Source of the DNA: Rhodobacteraceae bacterium Alg231-30
GTDB lineage: Bacteria > Pseudomonadota > Alphaproteobacteria > Rhodobacterales > Rhodobacteraceae
Assembly: GCA_900143615.1 (NCBI GenBank)
Contig: FREU01000003.1
Coordinates: 1 to 64,000 of the forward strand
Direction: 5' to 3'
Length of the DNA stretch: 64,000 nucleotides
This document shows, piece by piece, positions 211 through 18,833 of the stretch. Made by a program: the position numbers and the translations under genes. A model generated the notes under the pieces. That model did no database searches. It was not told the origin of the DNA and saw only the letters and a program-made list of their open reading frames with translations. Position 1 is the stretch's first letter. Every line of letters begins with the position of its first letter.

Positions 211-2017
<1,807 letters not shown>

Positions 2018-2025
<8 letters not shown>

Positions 2026-3303: not shown

Positions 3304-3501
3304 TGCCTTTTGCTTTCCCGTTTCTTAAATGGGGAAGCCAGAGACTTTGCCTCTTTCTCCCCGCAAGTAAAATAGACACCGACCGTGGCTCACTGCGTTG
3401 CGCCCGCACCATCGTCATCGATTTTTCTTATCCCCTCCCAACTCCATCCTCGCCGGAGGCAAGGGTTCAACGCGAACCCCTTGTTAATTGGAGAAAAGAA
3501 A

Positions 3502-4008
3502 ATGACGACATTATTTGCACAACCTTATGACCTAGCCGCCAACGGATTTTATTTTGAATGCCGCGAAGAATACGAACACAAAGCAAGCGCCCTGCGGAAC
3601 GATTACGGCCAGCCGGTGGAGGAGTTCGAGATCCAGTTTATCGATGGTGACGACATCGATTGTGTGCTTGCTGGTGCCGTAGGTCTCACCCAAGGAAACG
3701 CGGCGCGTTTTCTTGAGGTTGCCGAAGAATGGGAGGAAGATCAAAAGATCCGTTATATTCTCGCTGTTGGTGAATGTGGCTATGATTTCGACTTGGCCAG
3801 TGATGACCCCCGCGATTTGAATGTCGACATCTACGAGGTCGAGACCATGCGCGAACTGGCCGAACAATTCGTCGATGAAGGCCTCTGTGGAGAGATCCCC
3901 GACAGCATGCGCTTTTACTTCGACTATGACGCCTACGCCCGCGATTTGGCGATGGATTATAGCGAAACAACAATCAACGGATCCCGCATCATTTATCGGT
4001 GCGGGTAA
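3502..4008 (+). CDS. ardA: ArdA-type antirestriction protein
   Basis: A 168-aa, very acidic protein. ArdA proteins mimic B-form DNA and inhibit type I restriction enzymes as mobile elements enter a host. The C-terminal part, with MRELAEQFVDEGLCGEIP and then FYFDYDAYARDLAMDY, matches the typical ArdA end in which a Y(F)DYEAxARDL motif is conserved. The ATG at 3502 is chosen over an upstream in-frame codon because GGAGA lies just before it (3490-3494). A bulged inverted repeat (AAGGGTTC / GAACCCCTT, 3461-3482) sits directly upstream and could be an operator. A type I restriction system is encoded 540 bp downstream, so the element carries both restriction and antirestriction functions. Confidence 0.8.
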   Translation: MTTLFAQPYDLAANGFYFECREEYEHKASALRNDYGQPVEEFEIQFIDGDDIDCVLAGAVGLTQGNAARFLEVAEEWEEDQKIRYILAVGECGYDFDLASDDPRDLNVDIYEVETMRELAEQFVDEGLCGEIPDSMRFYFDYDAYARDLAMDYSETTINGSRIIYRCG

Positions 4009-4547: not shown

Positions 4548-6020
4548 ATGTTTGAGCAAACTTTCAAGACCATCGATGACGTCCTTTGGAAAGAGGCTGG
4601 CTGTACCACCGAGCTGGATTACACCGAGCAATCCTCGTGGATGCTATTCCTGAAATACCTCGATGATCTCGAACATGAACGCTCACTGGAGGCGGAGCTG
4701 GTCGGCAAGGCTTATACCTACATCATCGACCCTGCGCACCACTGGTCCAAATGGGCCGCGCCGAAAAAATCCGATGGCACCTTTGACCATGACAACGCTC
4801 TCACTGGCGATGACCTGATCCAATACGTCAACACTGATCTATTTCCCTACCTACAGGGCTTCAAGCAACGTGCCTCTGGCCCAGATACCATCGAATATAA
4901 AATCGGTGAAATCTTTGGCGAAATCAAAAACAAATTCCAAAGCGGCTACTCTCTGCGTGACGCGTTAGAGCTGATGGACAGCCTGCGGTTCCGCTCTCAA
5001 AAGGAAAAGCACGAGCTGTCTCACCTATATGAGGCCAAGATCAAAAACATGGGTAATGCGGGGCGCAATGGCGGGGAGTACTACACACCGCGTCCGCTGA
5101 TCCGCGCCATGATCCAAGTCGTGAAGCCCCAAATCGGCGAAACCGTCTATGATGGCGCGGTCGGCTCTGCGGGCTTCTTGTGTGAGGCCCATGACTATAT
5201 GCGTCATGAGCTGGGCGATCTGACCACCACGCAGCTCAACACCCTGCAATCCAACACCTTCTATGGCCGTGAAAAGAAATCGCTCGCCTATGTGATCGCG
5301 ATCATGAACATGATCTTGCACGGCATCGAGACACCCAACATCATTCACACCAACACCCTGTCCGAGAACATTCGTGATGTGCAGGAAAAAGACCGTCACG
5401 ATGTGATCCTTGCCAACCCGCCCTTTGGCGGCAAAGAACGCGCAGAGGTGCAGCAGAACTTCCCGATCAAAACCGGTGAAACCGCATTCCTATTCCTGCA
5501 ACACTTTATCAAACACCTAAAGGCAGGCGGGCGCGCCGCGATTGTCATTAAAAACACATTCCTCAGCAATTCCGACAATGCGTCCAAAGCATTGCGCAAA
5601 GAACTGCTGACATCGTGCAACCTGCACACCGTGCTGGATTGCCCCTCGGGCACCTTCCTCGGCGCGGGGGTGAAAACCGTTGTGCTGTTTTTCGAGAAAG
5701 GCGCGCCGACGCATAAGACGTGGTTTTACCAGCTCGAGCCCAAATCCGCCGATGGCAAACCGCGCAACATGGGCAAGACAAATCCGCTCAATGACAATGA
5801 CCTGAAAGAATTTGTCGCGCTGCAAACCAGCTTTGCAGACAGCGAGCAATCATGGTCGCTGGATATTTCCACGCTGGATGACGCCTATGACCTGTCGGTG
5901 AAAAACCCGAACACCCCCGAAGAAGCCCCCCTGCGCGAGCCCGCCGAAATCATGGATGAAATCGCCGCACTGGACAAAGAGAGTGCCGAGCTTCTGGCGA
6001 CCATTCGGGGTCTGCTATGA
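4548..6020 (+). CDS. hsdM: Type I restriction-modification system, methyltransferase subunit HsdM
   Basis: This 490-aa N6-adenine DNA methyltransferase subunit forms the HsdM2S modification core and, with HsdR, the restriction complex. The N-terminal HsdM helical domain spans about residues 1-140. The catalytic N6_Mtase domain has the SAM-binding motif as VYDGAVGSAGFL (about residue 200) and the catalytic motif NPPFGG within DVILANPPFGGKE (about residue 288). The length is normal for the family. It overlaps hsdS by 4 bp (ATGA), and the order hsdM-hsdS-hsdR indicates one operon. All key motifs are present, so the enzyme should be active. Confidence 0.96.
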   Translation: MFEQTFKTIDDVLWKEAGCTTELDYTEQSSWMLFLKYLDDLEHERSLEAELVGKAYTYIIDPAHHWSKWAAPKKSDGTFDHDNALTGDDLIQYVNTDLFPYLQGFKQRASGPDTIEYKIGEIFGEIKNKFQSGYSLRDALELMDSLRFRSQKEKHELSHLYEAKIKNMGNAGRNGGEYYTPRPLIRAMIQVVKPQIGETVYDGAVGSAGFLCEAHDYMRHELGDLTTTQLNTLQSNTFYGREKKSLAYVIAIMNMILHGIETPNIIHTNTLSENIRDVQEKDRHDVILANPPFGGKERAEVQQNFPIKTGETAFLFLQHFIKHLKAGGRAAIVIKNTFLSNSDNASKALRKELLTSCNLHTVLDCPSGTFLGAGVKTVVLFFEKGAPTHKTWFYQLEPKSADGKPRNMGKTNPLNDNDLKEFVALQTSFADSEQSWSLDISTLDDAYDLSVKNPNTPEEAPLREPAEIMDEIAALDKESAELLATIRGLL

Positions 6021-7279
6021 AGGCGGAGTGGGAAGAGAAGACGCTTGGTGAGGTGTCTGATATTATCAACGGAGGCACCCCAAAATCAAAGGTAGCTGAA
6101 TTTTGGGACGGTAATGTCAACTGGCTAACACCAAAGGACATGGGGAAACTTGACGGAAAATATGTAGCTGAAACCCCAAGGAAAATCACAGAGTTGGGGC
6201 TTCAAAAGTCGTCGGCAAAGCTAGCGAAACCCAGATCTGTAATCATGTCGACCCGCGCACCTATCGGGCACTTAGCAATCAATGAAGTGCCGATGGCGTT
6301 TAACCAAGGGTGCAGAGCTTTGCAGCCAAATGAAGGTACCGACGAACATTTCCTTTTTTACTATTTACTCGCGAATGTTACCCCATTGAACGACTTGGGC
6401 ACCGGAACTACTTTTAAAGAACTTTCTGGAAAGGCTTTGAAGGAATTCAAAATCCCCCTCCCACCACTCGCGGAGCAAAAACAGATTGTCTCTGTGTTGG
6501 ATCAAGCCTTTGCGGGGATAGAGCGGGCGGCGGAGGCGGCGCGCAAAAACCGCGACAACGCCCGCGAACTGTTTGAGACCACCCTAAACGCCACCTTCAC
6601 CCAAAAAGGCAAAGGCTGGGTGGAAACGACTTTGGGTGAGGTTTGTGAAATCACGCATGGTTTTGCTTTTAAAGGTAGTAATTTTGGCGTGTCTGATAAT
6701 GAAGAAGAGCCTATTGTGCTTACCCCTGGAAACTATTCAGAAGCAGGCCGCTTGGTTTTTACAGCGAAGAACACCAAGCGTTTCAACGGTGAGGTTCCGG
6801 TTAGTTACCTATTTGAAGTTGGCGAGCTTACGGTTGTGATGACCGATCTTTCTTCACAGATGAAGCTGCTGGGAAAACCTGCATTCATCGAGCATAGACA
6901 CATATTACATAATCAACGAATTGGGAGGGTAATATTCAAGACCGATTTTGTTGATCGAAAGTTCGTATATTATTTTTTGAGGTCACGGGTCGCATCCGTG
7001 GCGATACAAGAGACCTCAACGGGGACTATGGTTCGCCACACGGCACCAAAGCGGATATTAGCCCTGCGTTTTCCACTCCCAACGGACCGGAATCTGCTAA
7101 GCGCAGCAATTGGTAGGTTAGACCAGCTAGAGGCCAAAACCCAATGCCTCGAAATCCTCTACCAACAAAAGCTCGACGCGTTGGAGGAATTGAAACACTC
7201 TCTTTTACAAAAGGCCTTTGCCGGAGAGCTTACCGTTGATTTTGTAGCGGACAGGGCAGAGGACGCATTAGCGATTTAG
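6017..7279 (+). CDS. hsdS: Type I restriction-modification system, specificity subunit HsdS
   Basis: The 420-aa DNA recognition subunit has the usual two-halved layout. Target recognition domain 1 is at about residues 1-150, opening WEEKTLGEVSDIINGGTPK. A first conserved helical spacer follows (PLPPLAEQKQIVSVLDQAF, about 150-195). Target recognition domain 2 is at about 205-375, opening WVETTLGEVCEITHG, and a second spacer ends in LLQKAFAGEL. The parallel WxExTLGEV openings show the internal duplication. The recognition domains are more AT-rich than the flanking hsdM and hsdR DNA, as is common where domains are exchanged by recombination. The bipartite recognition sequence cannot be predicted here. 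Confidence 0.94.
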   Translation: MKAEWEEKTLGEVSDIINGGTPKSKVAEFWDGNVNWLTPKDMGKLDGKYVAETPRKITELGLQKSSAKLAKPRSVIMSTRAPIGHLAINEVPMAFNQGCRALQPNEGTDEHFLFYYLLANVTPLNDLGTGTTFKELSGKALKEFKIPLPPLAEQKQIVSVLDQAFAGIERAAEAARKNRDNARELFETTLNATFTQKGKGWVETTLGEVCEITHGFAFKGSNFGVSDNEEEPIVLTPGNYSEAGRLVFTAKNTKRFNGEVPVSYLFEVGELTVVMTDLSSQMKLLGKPAFIEHRHILHNQRIGRVIFKTDFVDRKFVYYFLRSRVASVAIQETSTGTMVRHTAPKRILALRFPLPTDRNLLSAAIGRLDQLEAKTQCLEILYQQKLDALEELKHSLLQKAFAGELTVDFVADRAEDALAI

Positions 7280-7287
7280 GATATTTT

Positions 7288-9615
7288 ATGAACGAAGCAG
7301 AAACCCGCGCAGAATTAATCGATCCCGCCCTTGCCGCCGCCGGATGGGGCGTTGTTGATGGATCACGGGTGCGGCGCGAGGTGATCACACTGGGCCGTTT
7401 GCAAGGCGCGGGCAAACGCAGCTCTCAGGACATCGCCGATTATGTGCTGTTCTATCGCGGTCAAAAGCTCGCCGTGATCGAAGCCAAACGCCGCAACCTG
7501 CCCGACACCGAGGGCGTGGCGCAGGCCAAGAAATACGCGGCGTCCTTGCAATGCCGTTTTGCCTATTCCACCAATGGCGCAGGCATCTATCGCATCGATA
7601 TGGAAACGGGGTATGAGACCTATGTCGACCGTTACCCCACGCCAGAAGAGCTGTGGGACGCCACCTATGCCGTGCCCAACCTGTGGCGCAACCGTTTCGG
7701 CGCTGTCCCGTTCGAGGACAAAGGCGGCCAATGGCAGGCGCGCTATTACCAGCACAACGCCATCAACCAAACGCTGGAAGCTATCGCAGACGGCCAAGAC
7801 CGCATTTTGCTGACACTGGCGACAGGCACGGGTAAAACCGCCGTGGCGTTCCAATTGGCGTGGAAGCTGTTTCATGCCCGCTGGAACCTGAATGATTGGA
7901 AAACGGACGCCGAGCCAACCCGCCGCCCGCGCATCCTGTTTCTGGCCGACCGCAATATTCTGGCCAATCAGGCGTATAATTCATTCTCGGCCTTCCCCGA
8001 GGATGCATTGGTGCGGATCAGCCCCAAAGAGATCAGCAAAAAGGGACGCGTTCCCAAGAACGGCAATATCTTTTTCACGATCTTCCAGACGTTCATGACG
8101 GGAGAAGAAGGCGCCGAGAACTACGGCGACTACCCGCGTGATTTCTTTGATTTGATCATCATCGACGAATGCCATCGCGGCGGCGCAAATGACGAAGGCA
8201 ATTGGCATGGGATTTTGGAATATTTCGCCCCTGCCGTGCAGCTTGGACTGACTGCTACGCCCAAACGCAAAGACAACGTCGACACCTACGGCTATTTCGG
8301 CGATCCCGTTTACACCTATTCCCTAAAAGAAGGCATTAACGATGGATATCTGACGCCCTTCAAGGTGAACCAGATCGCCACCACGCTGGATGATTACGTT
8401 TACACCTCCGATGATGCTGTGATCGAAGGCGAGGTTGAGGAAGGTAAGCGGTACTCTGAGGGCGAGTTCAACCGCGTGATTGAGATCGCGGAGCGCGAAA
8501 AATACCGCGTGAGTTTGGTGATGCAGGCGATTGATCAGTCGCAAAAAACCATCGTGTTTTGTGCCACGCAAGAGCACGCCTTGGCTGTGCGCGATTTGAT
8601 CAACCAGATGAAGACCAGCACCGACCCGAATTATTGCGTGCGCGTGACTGCCGAAGATGGCGCACTGGGCGAGCAGTGGCTGGAAGAATTTCAAGACAAC
8701 GAGAAAACCATTCCCACGGTTCTAACGACGTCGCAAAAGCTCTCAACCGGTGTGGATGCCCGCAATGTGCGCAACATCGTTTTGATGCGCCCTGTGAATT
8801 CGATGATTGAGTTTAAGCAGATCATCGGGCGGGGTACGCGGTTGTTTGATGGCAAGGATTACTTCACCGTTTATGACTTCGTGAAGGCCTATGAACATTT
8901 CAACGATCCCGAATGGGATGGCGAACCTGCTGAACCGGTGGAAACCACCACTGCTGGCGGTTCTGGCGACGGTGAAAAAGACGACACACCACGTGAACCC
9001 AATGAAGATGGCGAAGACAAGCCCAAACGCGAGAAGGTGAAAATCAAACTTGCGGATGGCAAAGAACGTACCCTGCAACACATGAGCGCGACAACGTTCT
9101 GGAGCCCTGAAGGCAAGCCGATGTCGGCGGCAGAGTTTATTGAGCGGATGTTTGGCGAACTGCCGGAATTGTTCAAAGATGAAGATGAACTGCGAGAGAT
9201 TTGGAGCAAGCCTGATACAAGAAAAGCCTTACTCGATGCGCTTTCCGAGAAAGGTTACGGGCAGGATCAGCTTAATGAAATTAAGGGGCTGATCAACGCG
9301 GAAAAAAGCGACCTCTTTGATGTGCTTGCATACATCGCATTTGCGCTATCGCCAATTTCGCGGAGGAAAAGAGCTGATCTTGGAGAGCAGAATATCGCAG
9401 CTGAGTACGACGAAAAGCTGCGCTTGTTCCTGAGTTTTGTGCTGGCGCAATATGTTCGCGAAGGCGTTAGCGAGCTTGATCAAGCCAAACTGCCGGATCT
9501 GCTGGAATTAAAGTATCAGGCTGTTTCTGATGCTGCTGCGGAGCTTGGTGGCGTTTCACGTATTAGGGAGGCTTTTGTAGGCTTCCAGAAACATTTGTAT
9601 CACGGTGAGCTTTGA
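7288..9615 (+). CDS. hsdR: Type I restriction-modification system, endonuclease/translocase subunit HsdR (EcoEI-like)
   Basis: This 775-aa motor and nuclease subunit has an N-terminal PD-(D/E)xK nuclease domain with DYVLFYRGQKLAVIEAKRR (D, then ExK) near residues 50-68. The SF2 helicase motifs follow: Walker A LATGTGKTAVAF (about 178), DECHRGG (about 293), LTATPKR (about 320), and the C-terminal RecA-like domain with TGVDARNVRNIV and QIIGRGTRLFDG. An acidic linker (about 550-585) leads to an EcoEI-type C-terminal region. The size fits the EcoEI group, shorter than EcoKI or EcoR124. It begins 8 bp after hsdS. No disruption is visible. Confidence 0.95.
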   Translation: MNEAETRAELIDPALAAAGWGVVDGSRVRREVITLGRLQGAGKRSSQDIADYVLFYRGQKLAVIEAKRRNLPDTEGVAQAKKYAASLQCRFAYSTNGAGIYRIDMETGYETYVDRYPTPEELWDATYAVPNLWRNRFGAVPFEDKGGQWQARYYQHNAINQTLEAIADGQDRILLTLATGTGKTAVAFQLAWKLFHARWNLNDWKTDAEPTRRPRILFLADRNILANQAYNSFSAFPEDALVRISPKEISKKGRVPKNGNIFFTIFQTFMTGEEGAENYGDYPRDFFDLIIIDECHRGGANDEGNWHGILEYFAPAVQLGLTATPKRKDNVDTYGYFGDPVYTYSLKEGINDGYLTPFKVNQIATTLDDYVYTSDDAVIEGEVEEGKRYSEGEFNRVIEIAEREKYRVSLVMQAIDQSQKTIVFCATQEHALAVRDLINQMKTSTDPNYCVRVTAEDGALGEQWLEEFQDNEKTIPTVLTTSQKLSTGVDARNVRNIVLMRPVNSMIEFKQIIGRGTRLFDGKDYFTVYDFVKAYEHFNDPEWDGEPAEPVETTTAGGSGDGEKDDTPREPNEDGEDKPKREKVKIKLADGKERTLQHMSATTFWSPEGKPMSAAEFIERMFGELPELFKDEDELREIWSKPDTRKALLDALSEKGYGQDQLNEIKGLINAEKSDLFDVLAYIAFALSPISRRKRADLGEQNIAAEYDEKLRLFLSFVLAQYVREGVSELDQAKLPDLLELKYQAVSDAAAELGGVSRIREAFVGFQKHLYHGEL

Positions 9616-9677
9616 GGCGATGAAAATCGTTCTCGGATTTCCCAAATAGAAGATTGAATAATAGCTAAGGATTTTAA

Positions 9678-10637
9678 ATGGCATTACCTTCAAATTACCG
9701 GTGGATCGTAGTTGGAAATTTAGCGATCAGGAACCGCGCTAATGTACCACATTACGCACCCGATTTTGCAATTGGGGACTTGATTGCGGCGATCAATGAT
9801 AGGATCGCTCGAGGCGATGTGCATCGTGAGTATTCCAAAAATTCTCGCCTTATGTGGTGTGAAAATTTCGAAGACGGCGACGTTTTCTATCGCCTAATTT
9901 TACAGGTGGGTGACAAGAACGTAACTGGTGTCTCGTTTCTTCATTTTGAAACCAAGGAGACACGTGACATCGAGAAGGAAGAAGAAGAAGGCGGTCATTA
10001 TGCTGCCCACATCTTGATCAAGAAAGCGGCTGACCCACATGGGCGACACCTGATCCTTATAGAAAAGGTTCCCGGCGTTTATCTTTCGTCAGTTAAGGAT
10101 CATCTGACGTGGGTTTGCAAAAACGCACTTTATGAGAAGGAAGCGCAGGATGATGATGGTGAAATAAAGCGCTTTCGACCGGTGTTTGATATAGATGGCC
10201 ACCAGTCCCGAACGATCCGTGAAGCACTGAGAACTGGAACGCTTCAGGATATCGAGTTCATTGGGCATGAAGAAAACCATGAAGATGGATTGGATGAAGA
10301 CCCCATCGTGGAAGAGGTCGTTCATGAAGCAAGATGGGAAATTAAAAAGCGCGTATCCGATGATCAAGCGCAAACGATCTTTGGGCGTGTCGGTGGGTTC
10401 TTAGATCGTTTCAGAGGTGGTGCAGATGACACACAAATCTTTGTGAGGATTAAAGCTGCAAATGGGCAAATCAAACGAACTGAGGTGCATCATAATGGGG
10501 ATGAAATTCTTGAGCAGGCGTTTGTGCAGAATGAGATCGTGAACGAGTTCGATCCGCCGTTGACACAACGCTATGCAGCTTTTCGTCAAGACATGATACA
10601 AAAAATGGTCGATGTGGCCAACAATGTAGGCGGTTGA
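9678..10637 (+). CDS. Unknown soluble protein, first gene of a coupled two-gene module
   Basis: A 319-aa protein with no signal peptide or membrane segment and no motif I can name. The N-terminal two thirds look alpha/beta, opening YRWIVVGNLAIRNRANVP. An acidic stretch is at about 95-105 (DIEKEEEEGG) and another at about 195-215 (HEENHEDGLDEDP). A beta-rich part follows, with TQIFVRIKAANGQIKRTEV, and then a C-terminal helix. The start has TAAGGA seven bases upstream. It lies 62 bp after hsdR and its stop is one base before the ATG of a membrane protein gene, so the two are almost certainly co-translated. The pairing of a roughly 320-aa soluble protein with a four-helix membrane protein resembles membrane-effector defence systems such as Kiwa in outline only. 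Homology is not claimed. Confidence 0.75.
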   Translation: MALPSNYRWIVVGNLAIRNRANVPHYAPDFAIGDLIAAINDRIARGDVHREYSKNSRLMWCENFEDGDVFYRLILQVGDKNVTGVSFLHFETKETRDIEKEEEEGGHYAAHILIKKAADPHGRHLILIEKVPGVYLSSVKDHLTWVCKNALYEKEAQDDDGEIKRFRPVFDIDGHQSRTIREALRTGTLQDIEFIGHEENHEDGLDEDPIVEEVVHEARWEIKKRVSDDQAQTIFGRVGGFLDRFRGGADDTQIFVRIKAANGQIKRTEVHHNGDEILEQAFVQNEIVNEFDPPLTQRYAAFRQDMIQKMVDVANNVGG

Positions 10638-10638
10638 T

Positions 10639-11214
10639 ATGGCGTTCCAAAAACATACCAAAGTATTCACGGTTCTTTCGTTCTTACGGCTGCGAAGCCC
10701 CGACATTTTTTGGTATCAATGGATTTACCCGACAATTGTATTTCTTGTAGTTTTTGGAGGCTTCCAAATCTGGGGAGATAGCTTCCTCACCTTTGATAAG
10801 GACAAGCTCATCGGCGATGTAAATGCTTTGATGGGAATTTTGGTGGGGTTCTATATCGCGGCTTTGGCCGCTGTTTCCAGCTTTTCAAATGAAAATCTAG
10901 ACCAAGTTATGAAAGGACGCGCACCGACTATTGTTAGCATGCGAAAAAAAAATGAGATTAAGGAAACGCTGACCAGAAGACGATTTTTGGCGGTGATTTT
11001 TGGATATTGCGCGACTTTGGCGATTGTCCTTTATGTATTTGGAGTATTGCAAGTTCACTTAACTGTGACGCAACCAACGGCAACTTGGGCCGTGATCGCA
11101 GCATGTTTAGCACAAAAGGCAGTATGGGGCCTATATGTTTGGATGATTTCGAGTTTGCTAGTGGTGACCCTCTTGGGGCTTCATTATTTGGTTGAGCGAA
11201 TGCACCGCGCTTAG
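10639..11214 (+). CDS. Four-helix membrane protein, second gene of the two-gene module
   Basis: A 191-aa inner-membrane protein. Predicted helices fall at about residues 27-43 (PTIVFLVVFGGFQIWG), 62-82 (NALMGILVGFYIAALAAVSS), 113-135 (FLAVIFGYCATLAIVLYVF) and 160-185 (VWMISSLLVVTLLGLHYL), with a further hydrophobic stretch near 148-158. A basic loop, MRKKNEIKETLTRRR, separates the second and third helices. There is no signal peptide cleavage site or catalytic motif. Translation starts one base after the stop of the upstream gene, which strongly suggests a protein pair. Within a restriction-centred island, a sensor plus membrane-effector module is a plausible role, but this is inference. Confidence 0.75.
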   Translation: MAFQKHTKVFTVLSFLRLRSPDIFWYQWIYPTIVFLVVFGGFQIWGDSFLTFDKDKLIGDVNALMGILVGFYIAALAAVSSFSNENLDQVMKGRAPTIVSMRKKNEIKETLTRRRFLAVIFGYCATLAIVLYVFGVLQVHLTVTQPTATWAVIAACLAQKAVWGLYVWMISSLLVVTLLGLHYLVERMHRA

Positions 11215-11240
11215 GTCAACTCATAAAGGGATGGCAGTAG

Positions 11241-12293
11241 CTACGATTTCTGGTACCACGTTGCTCTTGCTTTGCCATGCTTGGAAATATGGCCAGAATT
11301 CACAAGTTCTCGCAGTCGCACTTTGATCGTGTTTTTATTGCCGCCGGTCAGTTCTTCGATTTTGGAGAGGTTCAGGCGGTCATGGGTTTCAAACAGATCT
11401 AAGATTTTCAAGGACAGTTCTGGCAGGTCAACTTTGTCGATCTGAGGCTGTTCACGGTCCAGACGTTTGACGAGGTTGTCTTTTTGTTTCTTTAAGCAGC
11501 GCAGGAAAAAGCCAATCCAAGGCGTCCAGTCAGGATCGTTGCTTTTTAGTGTGGTTTGGGTGCGGCGCAGGCTTTTATAGTAGATGTCCTTGTTCTCTTC
11601 GATCACGCTTTCCAGTGAGGCATAGGGTACATAGGCATAGCCAGCGCGCAGAAGCATCAATGTTGTCAAGACGCGTGAGAGCCTGCCGTTCCCATCTTGG
11701 AACGGGTGGATGGCCAGAAACTGAACGGTGAATACAGCAACAATCAGCAGCGGGTGCATGGATTCTTCTTCCACCGCCTTATGGGTCCAGCGTACCAGAT
11801 CTTCCATCAAGTGAGGCGTTTCAAACGGTTGCGCCGTTTCAAAAATAACACCGACTTCTTTGCCGTTTGCATCGATAGCCACGACGTTGTTCGCCAGTTT
11901 CTTGTAATCACCGCGATGGCGTTCATCTTTGGTGCTGTGGCGCAAAAGAACTTGGTGCAACTGACGAATATGGTTCTCCGTAAGGGGCATGTCTTCAAAG
12001 GCCTGAAAAATCAGATCCATCGCCTCAGCATAACCCGCGACCTCTTGTTCATCCCGCGAGTCCAGCTTTTGCATCTGGATGTTGGAGAGCAAGGTTTCGA
12101 CCTGTACGTCAGTCAGCTTTGCCCCTTCAATCCGTGTCGATGAGCCAACGCTTTCGACGGTCGCAACCTTGCGCAAGGCGTTGAGGTGATCAGGCGACAG
12201 GTTCTTTAACGCTTCCCAACGGCCTTTGAACTCATCAACCTCTGCGATGAGTTTCAAAAGGTCTTGGGTTAGTGGTACGTTGGGCTCATTCAC
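11241..12293 (-). CDS. Fic domain protein with autoinhibitory motif and winged helix
   Basis: A 350-aa Fic family protein. Such enzymes usually transfer AMP from ATP to protein hydroxyl groups. The catalytic motif HPFQDGNGRLSR is complete (about residues 195-206). An N-terminal STRIEG sequence (about residues 50-57) fits the inhibitory (S/T)xxxE(G/N) helix, placing it with class II Fic proteins that are self-inhibited in cis. The C-terminus carries a winged-helix segment (LNLSKIEELTGGNKNTIKVR, about 308-327) that may bind DNA and control its own promoter. It converges on the upstream membrane protein gene. Directly before its start is an array of short repeats (12311-12351). The target is unknown. 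Confidence 0.93.
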   Translation of the reverse strand: MNEPNVPLTQDLLKLIAEVDEFKGRWEALKNLSPDHLNALRKVATVESVGSSTRIEGAKLTDVQVETLLSNIQMQKLDSRDEQEVAGYAEAMDLIFQAFEDMPLTENHIRQLHQVLLRHSTKDERHRGDYKKLANNVVAIDANGKEVGVIFETAQPFETPHLMEDLVRWTHKAVEEESMHPLLIVAVFTVQFLAIHPFQDGNGRLSRVLTTLMLLRAGYAYVPYASLESVIEENKDIYYKSLRRTQTTLKSNDPDWTPWIGFFLRCLKKQKDNLVKRLDREQPQIDKVDLPELSLKILDLFETHDRLNLSKIEELTGGNKNTIKVRLRELVNSGHISKHGKARATWYQKS

Positions 12294-13323: not shown

Positions 13324-14784
13324 TTGACAGGCAAGATATTTGACAAAATTAGAGGCGCAGTTTCAAAAGTACCTGTGCGGGAAATGACGTCGGGTGCCGA
13401 AAAGGCAATCAAGGAACAGATCACAAGCACAAAAGAAAATTTCGAACCCATTTCTGATGAAAACTGGTACAAAAATTCAGCTGAGGCCTGTGAGGGCGTG
13501 CGAGATGCGCTTTTACGGGAAGAGTCCGGTTTTTCGAACAAGCTGGTCAAAGGTGTTTCTGGAAAGCTGGGGTTTGCAGGAACCGGTGCGGGGATTTTCT
13601 CTGTTGCATCGCTTCTTGGAACGGCTGGGACAGGAACGGCCATTGGTTCCCTGTCGGGTGCTGCTTTTACAAATGCTGCACTCGCATGGGTAGGTGGTAG
13701 TGTCATAGCGGGAACAGCGATAATTGGTGCAGCATCCGTTGCTGGCGGTATCGGAACCATACTCGGGGTTGGTTGGCTGAAAAGAAAATACGTTTCAGGG
13801 GAAGCTCGCGAAAAAAGTGAGCTTGAGCTACAGGAACAACGTGTTTTGGATGTGTGTCTTTCATTGGCAATTGCTTTCAGGGAGCAAGAAAAAGCGGGAC
13901 GACTCCTTGATCCAATGACGGCATCTGCGGTGTATGGGGATGCACTAAAGCCTTTGTGCGAGGAACTCATGGAGTGCAACTATCGCGCAAACTCATGGCC
14001 AGTATTGGCAAGGAGAAACCTTAAATCTGCGACAGCAAAGCTCCACAGTGCAACGGGCTATGTCTATCGATGGTCGAAGGACCATCCCAATGTCTCCACA
14101 GGGATTGTATCGGTGGTTGTTCTACAGTTACTGGCTGATGGGGTCCCATCCTTTTCAGAGAATGAACAGTTTGTGTTGGAGGCCTTGCGGCGTTCCAATA
14201 ATGAGCTGACCAACGCAACAGATGAGGAGCTTGCGGTATACATTCAGAGTATGGAGCCAGTTCAGCTGTCCGGTTTGACGAACAATATCAAAGGAATTTA
14301 CCATGAGCTGCTTTTCCAGCACGAGGAAAATAGCGATGGTGATCAGTACATTGTCGAAATATTTGATGCGACAAATCACGCTGGCTCAGATGTTCGCATA
14401 ATCAACACTGTAACTGATGAAGTGAAAGAAGTTCAGCTGAAGGCGACTAAGTACGCATCTTATGTTCGTGAGCATAACGAGAAGTATGAAAATATCGAAG
14501 TTTTTGCAACCGAAGAAGTCGCGGGCACGAGCGGAGATTTAACGTCGACAGGTTTTTCAAATTCGGAACTGAATGAGGATGTTGGGAATGTTTTTGAAGG
14601 GTTGGATGATTTTGATCATCCTAGCGCCTTGATGAGCATGTCAACTGCGGCAATGATAACATTGGCGCGAAATTCACGGGTACTTCTACGCGGTGGAGGC
14701 ATCCCGCAAGCTGAGAAAGAGAAGATGGTCAAAGACGGTGCGATTTCAGCGGGTGTTGCCGGTTTCGTGCACCTGATTCTTTGA
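13324..14784 (+). CDS. Membrane-associated protein with a PD-(D/E)xK nuclease-like domain
   Basis: A 486-aa protein that starts at TTG with GAGGT eight bases upstream. Residues about 75-155 are glycine/alanine-rich and hydrophobic (for example IGSLSGAAFTNAALAWVGGS and IAGTAIIGAASVAGGIGTIL), suggesting membrane insertion. A second hydrophobic segment lies near 260 (STGIVSVVVLQLLADGVP). Residues about 320-400 resemble a PD-(D/E)xK core: a helix with Glu (GIYHELLFQHEE), then GSDVRII with the Asp, then EVQLKAT with QxK. The C-terminus is hydrophobic again. A membrane-tethered nuclease would fit a phage-defence role in this island. The nuclease call rests on motif spacing only. The gene converges on the mobilisation operon. 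Confidence 0.7.
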   Translation: MTGKIFDKIRGAVSKVPVREMTSGAEKAIKEQITSTKENFEPISDENWYKNSAEACEGVRDALLREESGFSNKLVKGVSGKLGFAGTGAGIFSVASLLGTAGTGTAIGSLSGAAFTNAALAWVGGSVIAGTAIIGAASVAGGIGTILGVGWLKRKYVSGEAREKSELELQEQRVLDVCLSLAIAFREQEKAGRLLDPMTASAVYGDALKPLCEELMECNYRANSWPVLARRNLKSATAKLHSATGYVYRWSKDHPNVSTGIVSVVVLQLLADGVPSFSENEQFVLEALRRSNNELTNATDEELAVYIQSMEPVQLSGLTNNIKGIYHELLFQHEENSDGDQYIVEIFDATNHAGSDVRIINTVTDEVKEVQLKATKYASYVREHNEKYENIEVFATEEVAGTSGDLTSTGFSNSELNEDVGNVFEGLDDFDHPSALMSMSTAAMITLARNSRVLLRGGGIPQAEKEKMVKDGAISAGVAGFVHLIL

Positions 14785-15168: not shown

Positions 15169-16962
15169 TTACTTGTCGTGAAGATTGACGCCTTTGGCTT
15201 TCAGCTCATCGTCTTCAAACCAAGGGGTTTTCGTGACGATCATCGGGTACATATTGTCGATGAAGACCAATTGCTTTTGGGCATTCATTCGCATCAGCTC
15301 ATCAGGGTAGGCCAATTTGCGTTGCGATGCCGCCCGCGTATCGCTTTGCGTGACCGTTTCAGACGAGCTCAAACCACCATTGCCTGTACTTGTGCCAATC
15401 GCACGGGACAACGCGGAGCTGAAGTTCCACACTGTCGTTTCGCCACACAAGGCGGAAAAATATTCAGCAGTCATGCGGTCAGTCGAACCGAAGTAGTTGA
15501 TCATGCCGGTGTTGGCGATGAAGGATTGCCAGCCTTTGCCATAGAGGCGCTCCAACTGGCTGAGATCTTGGACAAAACTCCAAAGCTGCATACCAAACCC
15601 AGCCATCAATCCATATGCCTGTTCAATCACCGCAAGTTTGCCGAGCGCAGGCATTTCGTCCAAGATGAACAGCACAGGCTTTTCAGGCTTGTCGGCAATG
15701 TTACGGGCGTTGACCGTGATCGATTGCTGGATCAGCAAACGCAACCAGCGTGCAAATGGGTGCAGGCGGTCTGCTGGCAGAACCAAATAGATGCTCATGG
15801 CCGTTGTTTTCAGATCCTCAAATTTGAAGTCTGATACCGACAGACTTTCGCGAATGCGCGCACTATCAAGAAAGTGCGTTTCAGCTTGCGCAGATGCGAT
15901 CACATTGGCCAAGAGTTTCTCTTCTTTTTGCAAACTGCGCGCACCCGTGCTGGCCACGACATGATGTGGAGATTGCGACATCAGGGTGAACAGCTTGGTG
16001 AGGTCTTCGCCGTCGAGCAAAAGAAGATCACGAACGCGGCCCAAGTGACGTTGCCCATCTTCATGTTCGTCAGTAGCGACATAGAGGATGATGCCTTGCA
16101 GCAAAGCTTTGGCCTCTTCGCTCCAAAATTTGTCGCTTGTTCCATCAGGCATGATCAACGCATCCGCCAAGAGCATCGCATTTTCAGTGATGTCGACGTC
16201 ACCTGCGACCAGCCAATCCAAAGGATTGAAGCGTGCCGTTTGAATGCCGTTCACTTGCGCAATTCCCCATGGATCAACCAATTGAACAGCTTGCCCCATG
16301 TCCTTGCGTGCCTGTGCCGTGATCAAAGCGTTTTCACCCTTTGGATCAATTACCAATACTGAGCCTGTGTAAGACAGCAAATTGGGGATGATTGCACTGA
16401 CACCCTTGCCTGCGCGGGTCGGAGCGACTGTCAGCAAGTGACTGTCACCGGAATAACGAATTTCCTGCGCGACCTCATCTTTGCTGACGGTTGTTGTTCC
16501 AAGGCGGATACCGCTTTGTTCGAACAAATTCTTGGCCATCATATCTTTGATTGTCGCCCAGCGGCTTGAGCCAAATGTCGTTGGCACTTCAGCTAGTGCT
16601 TTCACACCGGTTCCGATCCAATAGCCAATCGCAACAAAGAAGCCGACGACAGATACCAGCCAAGTGCTGCTCCACCCCAGCGCCCCTTGGTTGAAAATCG
16701 CGAGGAATACAGTGAGGCCAGCGATGCAGAGCAGGATAATGCGGCGCAGATGTTTCGCTTGCGGCGACATGAACCACCCAAGGCAAAAACCAGAGCCAAT
16801 CGAAATGGCCATGATGAACATGCGCAGCATTGCCATTTCTGCTGAGAAGCCGCGATTGTAACGCCCATAGGGATCGCCAAACAATGATTGTGCCAGAGTT
16901 TCATTCGCAACAATGACAATCGCCATCGTCAAGCTAAGTAGTATTTTGTTTTGCCGTTTCAT
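15169..16962 (-). CDS. VirD4/TraG-type conjugative coupling protein
   Basis: This 597-aa type IV coupling ATPase delivers the relaxase-DNA complex to a secretion channel. Hydrophobic segments occur in the first 130 residues (including FIMAISIGSGFCLGWFM and WLVSVVGFFVAIGYWIG), anchoring it in the inner membrane. Walker A is APTRAGKGVSAIIP (near 180) and Walker B is VLFILDEMPALGKL. The start at 16962 (MKRQNKILLS) has GGAGA eight bases upstream; an ATG at 16974 without as good a site is possible. It begins 14 bp after the relaxase stop. No type IV secretion genes are in the window, so transfer would need a helper element. Confidence 0.93.
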   Translation of the reverse strand: MKRQNKILLSLTMAIVIVANETLAQSLFGDPYGRYNRGFSAEMAMLRMFIMAISIGSGFCLGWFMSPQAKHLRRIILLCIAGLTVFLAIFNQGALGWSSTWLVSVVGFFVAIGYWIGTGVKALAEVPTTFGSSRWATIKDMMAKNLFEQSGIRLGTTTVSKDEVAQEIRYSGDSHLLTVAPTRAGKGVSAIIPNLLSYTGSVLVIDPKGENALITAQARKDMGQAVQLVDPWGIAQVNGIQTARFNPLDWLVAGDVDITENAMLLADALIMPDGTSDKFWSEEAKALLQGIILYVATDEHEDGQRHLGRVRDLLLLDGEDLTKLFTLMSQSPHHVVASTGARSLQKEEKLLANVIASAQAETHFLDSARIRESLSVSDFKFEDLKTTAMSIYLVLPADRLHPFARWLRLLIQQSITVNARNIADKPEKPVLFILDEMPALGKLAVIEQAYGLMAGFGMQLWSFVQDLSQLERLYGKGWQSFIANTGMINYFGSTDRMTAEYFSALCGETTVWNFSSALSRAIGTSTGNGGLSSSETVTQSDTRAASQRKLAYPDELMRMNAQKQLVFIDNMYPMIVTKTPWFEDDELKAKGVNLHDK

Positions 16963-16976
16963 GGCATTCTCCATAA

Positions 16977-18272
16977 TCAGAGTTCAAATTTTGGGCCGCG
17001 ATCACGTTTGTGACGTTGAGCCCGCTCACGGGGCCGATTGGCATCCGTTTGGGATCTGCGCTCAGTGCCGCGCAGAAATTTGCTGACATCGCGAGCGAGG
17101 AACTTGCGATCTTGAATTTGTTTTTTGCGGATTGTGTCGAAGCGCCTTTGCAAAGCGTGACGATCAGACATTTGTGCCTTGACCAGATCGTCACGCTGCT
17201 TTTGGTCGCGGAGCATGCATTGATGCGCTTCGAGTTCATTACGCTTCTTGGTGGATTTTGCTCTCCCGCTGACCCAGTCGATCAGCCCGCGAACGCCCTT
17301 GTTCAGACGTTCAGAACGGAGCCGTGTTTCGTCCTGCCATCGGTTCTCTTGCCCTTCGCGCATTTGTTTCCGCTCAGAGCGATGCAATGAAACAAGCTTG
17401 GTTTTTTCACGTTGCAGTGGCTCTAGGTCGTGCAGGTGCTTGGCTTTTACGTCACCGATGAAACCCTTTAGTTTATCGGAGACAGCTGCGCGCAAATCGC
17501 GGCGTACATGGTCAACACTTGGTAGCTGATTTGGTGAGCCAAACTTGCCTTTTGCGTCCTTGGCACGAACACCGGACCATTTCGGGATGGAATAAACTTC
17601 TCCGTTCACGTCCAGCGCGACAAAGCCACGGCGATCTCCCTTGGCGATGAAGTAGCCGCGTTCAGCCAAGGCGTTGCCAAATGCCTTGAGGTTGTCGCTT
17701 CTCTTCCACGCATCTTGAAAGACGCTTTTGATTTCACGGGGATCAACGCCTTGGCGTTTGGCTTGTTGCCATTCTTCGAGCGTGAAATTGAGCGGGCTTT
17801 TCCCACCGCCAGCCTGCAAACCTTTTGGTAGCTCCCAGCCGTGATCCAGATACAACTCACGCGACAAGTCACGCAGACGGTTTTTGAAATGAGGGAGATT
17901 GATGGCCTTCAGCTCATCGCCATCAATTCGGGAAAACACCACGTGTGCGTGGCGGCGACCTTCTTTCTCGTGGATGACCACCGCGCGCGGTTGCCCTGAA
18001 AGACCAAGGGCTTCTTCAGCACGATCAGCGGCATCAAGAAAATCTTGTTCAGTCGCGATGTGATCCGTTGGTGGATTGAGGCTCAGAGAAAATAAATATT
18101 GCTTGCACTGGGTTGCCTTAGAAATGGCGTGCGCTTCGTTCAGAGCGCCATGTAGATCGTCAGCGACAAATCCACGGAGTTCGAGCACCGCAACATGGTC
18201 GTTGTCGCGGTCGTTCATGAGATGCGCAGATAATTTAGTCGCGCCAGCGCGTTGGGAGCCCTTGAGGATCAT
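16977..18272 (-). CDS. VirD2-like relaxase (mobilisation nuclease)
   Basis: This 431-aa relaxase would nick the origin of transfer and pilot the strand during mobilisation. The N-terminus MILKGSQRAGATKLSAHLM and the metal-binding histidine motif EGRRHAHVVFSRID (about residues 107-120) match the relaxase family common on alphaproteobacterial plasmids and integrated elements. The second half is highly charged, with clustered Arg and Lys, as is usual for DNA-processing tails. It overlaps mobC by 4 bp and precedes virD4, forming a mobC-relaxase-virD4 operon. The catalytic tyrosine could not be placed with certainty. Confidence 0.9.
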   Translation of the reverse strand: MILKGSQRAGATKLSAHLMNDRDNDHVAVLELRGFVADDLHGALNEAHAISKATQCKQYLFSLSLNPPTDHIATEQDFLDAADRAEEALGLSGQPRAVVIHEKEGRRHAHVVFSRIDGDELKAINLPHFKNRLRDLSRELYLDHGWELPKGLQAGGGKSPLNFTLEEWQQAKRQGVDPREIKSVFQDAWKRSDNLKAFGNALAERGYFIAKGDRRGFVALDVNGEVYSIPKWSGVRAKDAKGKFGSPNQLPSVDHVRRDLRAAVSDKLKGFIGDVKAKHLHDLEPLQREKTKLVSLHRSERKQMREGQENRWQDETRLRSERLNKGVRGLIDWVSGRAKSTKKRNELEAHQCMLRDQKQRDDLVKAQMSDRHALQRRFDTIRKKQIQDRKFLARDVSKFLRGTERRSQTDANRPRERAQRHKRDRGPKFEL

Positions 18273-18751
18273 ACCGTGAACCTCTTCGGATTAGTGTCTT
18301 GGTCAGTAGTCGGCTTCGGTTTCGCAGCTGCTCTTGCAAAACTTTGCGATGTGCTTTCGGAAACGACACCAAGTCCATTGGTTTCAACGCCAAGAGCACG
18401 AAGAAGAAGTTCGCGTATCGCGTGCACATCGGCGCAGGCGCGATTAATGTCGCGTTTGGTTTCGTCGTCGCAAAACAGAGATCCTGTGTTTGCGGCCTTG
18501 GCAAGTTGATTGAGATTGTTGGAAATTCGGCTCGCGCCAATGCAGGCCAAAACCTCAGCGAGGAGTTTTTCATCAGGTTCCGCGACACGACGACGTTTGC
18601 GGTATTTCGCGGCATCATCCGCAAAAAGAAGCGACTTTATGTATGACCCAATGGGCATACTTCCCGCATTGCGCTCAAGGCGGCTGCGTTCTTCAAAGGT
18701 CAAGCGCAACGAAAATGGCGCGTCTCTGGTTCCAATAGGTCTCTGTGTCAT
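18269..18751 (-). CDS. mobC: MobC-like relaxosome accessory protein
   Basis: A 160-aa DNA-binding accessory protein of the relaxosome. The N-terminal part (PFSLRLTFEERSRLERNAG) looks like a ribbon-helix-helix and the middle carries the MobC signature RISNNLNQLAKAAN. The start at 18751 (MTQRPIGTRD) is preferred over one 39 bases upstream because GGAGG lies six to seven bases before it. Its stop overlaps the relaxase start (ATGA). It probably binds the inverted repeats just upstream (18788-18833). Confidence 0.88.
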   Translation of the reverse strand: MTQRPIGTRDAPFSLRLTFEERSRLERNAGSMPIGSYIKSLLFADDAAKYRKRRRVAEPDEKLLAEVLACIGASRISNNLNQLAKAANTGSLFCDDETKRDINRACADVHAIRELLLRALGVETNGLGVVSESTSQSFARAAAKPKPTTDQDTNPKRFTV

Positions 18752-18787
18752 GGTCTGTCCTCCAGCCCATGACGGCCAACTCTTTGG

Positions 18788-18833
18788 CAAAGCAGATGTA
18801 ATCCGGCCCGAAGCGGATTAGTTAGTAGCTTTG
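18788..18833. promoter_or_regulatory. Nested inverted repeats upstream of mobC, candidate oriT or MobC operator
   Basis: An outer pair CAAAGC (18788-18793) and GCTTTG (18828-18833) encloses a perfect inner pair TAATCCG (18799-18805) and CGGATTA (18814-18820) with loop GCCCGAAG. Origins of transfer next to mobC-relaxase operons usually have such repeats beside the nick site. The alternative is a regulatory operator for the operon. Position and symmetry are seen; function is inferred. Confidence 0.5.

Follow-up and report, generated by a model that had tools for sequence, protein, structure and literature searches.

According to the consulted sections of PMC12894663, RexAB was the earliest abortive-infection system to be linked with phage defence; what sets it off has yet to be found, and the RexAB-like systems described so far number only five. 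In a stretch of 64,000 nucleotides (nt) of the Rhodobacteraceae bacterium Alg231-30 (contig FREU01000003.1, positions 1 to 64,000; hereafter the window), two adjacent genes, M53A and M53B, probably encode a RexAB-type abortive-infection system in which M53A would be the sensor and M53B the membrane effector; the pair would form a second line behind a type I restriction operon. The lambda pair, whose RexB is a four-helix protein like M53B, shares with the M53 pair the gene order, the short gap and, by prediction, the RexA-like fold of the soluble partner, but RexB has 144 amino acids (aa) compared to 191 for M53B and the lambda genes lie in the immunity region. RexABpp of Pseudomonas putida (PP_5643/PP_5644) differs in that a prophage carries it, where it follows a CI-like repressor and not restriction genes. 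Sbash gp30/gp31 and CarolAnn gp44/gp43 show the same order, A then B, but belong to actinobacterial phages and have no detectable sequence similarity to the M53 proteins.

9678..10637, forward strand: M53A (open reading frame ORF1), soluble RexA-like protein of 319 aa with an ATG start, proposed DNA-clamping sensor
10639..11214, forward strand: M53B (ORF2), four-helix membrane protein of 191 aa with an ATG start, proposed membrane-damaging effector (PADLOC PDC-M53B 1.4e-36, hydropathy, structure model)

Both reading frames are intact and co-directional, and ORF1 starts 62 nt after the end of hsdR at 9615. Indeed, these coordinates agree with the one-base gap and the position directly behind hsdR given by the sequence-only reading, an earlier model-made annotation of this DNA. 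No terminator-like site was found in the region 9400-11400. At E<=1e-3, 126 homologues were obtained for ORF1 and 311 for ORF2, the best 120 being listed for each, and given these numbers both are real genes and not chance reading frames.

The PADLOC profile search proposed in the sequence-only reading identified the products as PDC-M53A and PDC-M53B. M53A matches five PDC-M53A models (best 2.2e-28, residues 31-313) while M53B, which adjoins it, matches PDC-M53B over residues 11-190; both are covered over most of their length, in the order A then B. PDC denotes a phage defence candidate, as stated in the part of PMC11514479 consulted, and PDC-M53 is a nameless one, for which the PADLOC output gives no fold, mechanism or restriction link. 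Pfam and NCBIfam scans returned nothing above cut-off for either protein, and PHROGs gave at best families of unknown function. A term search of the literature retrieved no paper naming PDC-M53, and no test of the family was found, few of the listed papers having been checked in full. The pair had been put forward as an undescribed defence system; this stands in so far as the literature searched contained no test of the family, but it is already catalogued, and systems of the RexAB type have been described before.

The two genes are strongly associated. Loci were drawn from genome contigs (12 loci), viral contigs, phages, plasmids and whole genomes, the viral scans covering the best 80 of 117 and the best 80 of 137 relatives. 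M53A lies directly upstream on the same strand for 95 of 97 M53B sequences, which are distinct without being independent (a smaller set collected earlier fell into 55 groups at 80% identity). Of the two exceptions, the first begins 287 nt away from the end of its contig and the second stands alone on a Microvirga plasmid. Between the paired genes the gap has a median of 7 nt (range -56 to 75), and sizes vary from 306 to 403 aa for M53A, leaving out shorter, partial matches, and from 168 to 227 aa for M53B. The sequence sets comprised the window protein with 74 of 120 listed homologues (A2) or 84 of 125 listed proteins (A3) and, for dereplicated locus proteins, with 49 of 51 (A6) or 50 of 55 (A7).

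The pair was also found in Salmonella phage F1055, a Vibrio tectivirus-like phage, Moraxella phage Mcat23, an Acinetobacter plasmid and Shigella phage SfII, where it lies between Q and the lysis genes on the opposite strand; PADLOC confirms it in all five. A Sulfitobacter plasmid carries it as well. The SfII pair occurs in 9 of 5426 E. coli genomes, M53B in 2 of 398 sampled genomes of the phylum and 1 of 385 of the class (own genome counted each time), and M53A in 1 of 100 relatives searched, which is the own genome. This rare and patchy spread fits mobile genes.

In F1055 (locus L099, 2918-3009) the opening 80-90 nt of the M53A gene as annotated fall within the listed E. coli matches, 921 of 5426 E. 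coli genomes matching part of this query and 1 most of it, and no PADLOC alignment on the protein starts before residue 54; for these reasons the start may have been annotated too far upstream. In an alphaproteobacterial locus (L015, 3571-5623) the M53A copy is broken by a stretch with a transposase-like ORF (Pfam DDE_Tnp_IS1595, just under cut-off), and in genome G545 (L209, 6137-7640, reverse strand) the pair directly follows gyrB, which is on the other strand.

M53A is acidic, with 57 aspartate and glutamate residues for 40 lysine and arginine residues, and has no stretch over the hydrophobicity threshold, in agreement with its earlier description as soluble with acidic patches. Its predicted structure displays a RexA-like fold with the two domains of the RexA/RdgC type, and the domain split was drawn from the RexA description, as given in the part of PMC11077077 consulted.

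9678..10127, forward strand: M53A residues 1-150, putative N-terminal part of the split globular domain, its boundary estimated from model secondary structure compared with the RexA description (PMC11077077)
10587..10628, forward strand: M53A residues 304-317, helix at the C-terminus that would complete the globular domain (model secondary structure, predicted fold match, RexA description, PMC11077077)

The hydrophobic windows of M53B merge into four stretches, and 18 lysine and arginine residues oppose 10 aspartate and glutamate residues; 9 of the basic residues are found in the loop between the second and third transmembrane helices (TM2-TM3), in keeping with the four-helix membrane protein with a basic cytoplasmic loop that had been described. 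Across 51 M53B sequences the median number of basic residues is 4 at the N-terminal end, 6 in the TM2-TM3 loop and 0-1 in the other two loops. Since basic residues mark the cytoplasmic side of membrane proteins (the positive-inside rule), this distribution places both ends and the TM2-TM3 loop in the cytoplasm. Most invariant positions of the alignment are in the end of TM2, among them F71, I73, A74, A77 and A78, and in the loop, with R113 and R114.

10885..10983, forward strand: M53B residues 83-115, basic loop between TM2 and TM3 that includes the invariant R113 and R114 and may serve for contact or gating (conservation and charge counts; putative function after the Sbash gp31 loop mutants, PMC6426596)

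The same layout is reported for Sbash gp31 in the consulted part of PMC6426596, namely cytoplasmic ends and a functional TM2-TM3 loop in which two substitutions abolish defence. The M53B structure model has a predicted local distance difference test score (pLDDT) of 79 and gave no meaningful match in the structure search. A SLATT-type effector was not recognised either (Pfam SLATT_1 for the pair, E 0.23, 11.9 bits, under the 26.3 cut-off).

On sequence level, the lambda RexA/RexB models (Pfam PF15969/PF15968, PADLOC RexA/RexB) did not match the pair while positive controls were detected, and it is therefore not filed in these families. With hhalign, the pair gave 0.3-1.6% against Rex profiles, which does not stand out from the Kiwa comparison (0.3% and 0.5%), but a control comparison of lambda with actinophage Rex was also missed (0.1%), and the Sbash pair, an accepted Rex-type pair, misses the PADLOC Rex models as M53 does. 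Given that such tests miss control Rex pairs too, we hold the claim to RexAB-like working and a RexA-like predicted fold; common descent with RexAB is likely, if unproven. The lack of a sequence link to Rex by family models or hhalign, and of a meaningful structural match for M53B, would also suit an unnamed two-gene defence in which M53A resembles RexA only in having a common type of DNA-binding fold and the membrane effector M53B is not related, with the same sensor-effector logic but another ancestry and trigger. We consider this unlikely. As in RexAB-type systems, an adjacent four-helix partner is predicted here, in the order A then B.

The RexAB-type reading is based on what is observed, that is the gene pair, its conservation, its membership of a candidate family, the predicted fold match, the topology signals and the repeated restriction neighbourhood. 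The mechanism is carried over from the Rex systems, by analogy with which we infer that M53A dimerises and binds DNA, what triggers it, and that the membrane is damaged; co-transcription and any working link with restriction are likewise inferred. M53A would be a RexA/RdgC-fold protein, probably a dimer, holding DNA, and could be switched by phage replication or recombination DNA, or by a phage protein. Once switched, it would contact the basic TM2-TM3 loop of M53B, which would damage the membrane, so that growth stops and infection is aborted. As the last genes behind the type I restriction operon, the pair would act against phages that restriction does not stop. The sensor-effector abortive infection suggested earlier is thus supported by the PADLOC candidate status, the RexA-like predicted fold of M53A and the RexB-like layout of M53B.

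Gene anatomy alone also fits the reverse arrangement, in which the soluble protein stops growth and the membrane protein restrains it until infection, as in phage Butters, whose cytosolic RexA-like gp30 is the effector sequestered by gp31 (PMC12894663, consulted sections). However, in RexABpp, Sbash and CarolAnn, which have the same order and layout, the effector is the membrane protein (PMC12894663 and PMC6426596, consulted parts), and the invariant positions of M53B at the TM2 end and in the loop fit an active part without proving it. The Butters-like arrangement appears very unlikely.

Kiwa (KwaA/KwaB), to which the pair had also been likened, shares the sizes, about 190 aa for the membrane protein and about 300 aa for the soluble one (177-190 and 289-299 aa in the Kiwa loci compared), as well as the four-helix partner. 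However, no Kwa model matches the pair at E<=1 though the same library finds true Kiwa loci, and the order in those loci, KwaA then KwaB, is the opposite. The flat hhalign comparison has no power, and the solved KwaA chains are not among the 50 matches listed per model, which does not exclude KwaA. A divergent Kiwa system with reversed gene order is extremely improbable, and no test made here spoke for it.

4548..6020, forward strand: hsdM, type I methyltransferase (PADLOC MTase_I 5.8e-158)
6017..7279, forward strand: hsdS, type I specificity subunit (PADLOC Specificity_I 1.9e-61)
7288..9615, forward strand: hsdR, type I restriction subunit (PADLOC REase_I 3.3e-134), 62 nt before M53A

The co-occurrence with defence genes, a check proposed with the earlier annotation, was counted in 14 alphaproteobacterial loci (the window, L005-L016 and plasmid L101). 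A restriction-modification gene adjoins M53A in 8 of them, upstream and co-directional in 7 and divergent in 1. Besides the type I hsdR of the window, an enzyme of 1623-1741 aa lies 17-18 nt upstream in L005, L006, L008, L011 and L101; it is annotated as type ISP in L101 and matches REase-MTase models in L005, while those of L006, L008 and L011 are put with ISP by size and 60-80% identity to the L005/L101 enzymes. In L016 a type III Mod-Res pair is found 30 nt upstream, and in L015 the divergent gene is a type I hsdM with an hsdS-like gene. No restriction gene was recognised in L007, L009, L010, L012, L013 and L014, where only some neighbours were profile-scanned and L009, a 3.8 kb contig, was scanned with the window's own proteins only.

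Between L008 and L011 the ISP enzymes share 79% identity and the M53A proteins 60%, between L005 and L008 the values are 60% for ISP and 72% for M53A, and the window M53A is 85-86% identical to that of L005, L006 and L101, yet stands behind a type I system. Since enzyme and M53A identities disagree, the sequences point to restriction partners exchanged rather than to a single inherited cassette.

There is an even chance that these neighbours reflect mere defence-island clustering, or belong to the upkeep of the restriction operon itself, and are not functionally linked to the pair. Indeed, 6 of the 14 loci show no restriction gene beside it, the 8 of 14 stand without a background rate from other defence pairs, and phage copies work, if at all, without a restriction gene (the viral loci were not searched for such genes). 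On the other hand, 7 of the 14 share side, direction and gaps of 17-62 nt; their restriction systems are of three kinds, and the partners have been reshuffled. It is possible, though unlikely, that the RexAB-type pair is restriction-linked. The M53A clamp would then read what the neighbouring enzyme produces or where it fails (free ends, an enzyme stalled during translocation, phage DNA that replicates unrestricted, or restriction that an anti-restriction protein has blocked) before firing M53B, and restriction and abortive infection would form a two-tier operon that was assembled repeatedly, with enzymes of type I, type ISP and type III. PrrC is a restriction-linked backup system, of which the M53 pair may be a counterpart, and the pair would be of more weight if the link is functional. 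The repeated position behind restriction genes offers a testable idea of what a RexAB-type sensor reads. If the predicted fold is right, a catalogued but nameless family with 95 distinct pairs would represent a sizeable mobile RexAB-type group.

The defence-rich island described earlier is borne out by the type I genes, an ArdA-like antirestriction protein just upstream of them (3385-4008, forward strand, Pfam 3.5e-9) and a SoFic-like Fic protein convergent with the pair (11241-12293, reverse strand, PADLOC SoFic 1.4e-56). A large serine recombinase ORF (244-2025, reverse strand), closest to CcrB-type models (NCBIfam 1.9e-37, under cut-off), runs with its end into a tRNA-Met gene (211-287). 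The region 211-2025 is perhaps one end of an integrated element; no repeat of at least 18 nt was found. The island also carries mobilisation genes for a VirD4-type coupling protein, a relaxase and MobC (15169-18790, reverse strand). A second defence candidate in the island is the ORF at 13324-14784 (forward strand, 486 aa, TTG start), which matches PADLOC PDC-M72B in its C-terminal part (1e-21) and PDC-M09A in an inner part (1e-12).
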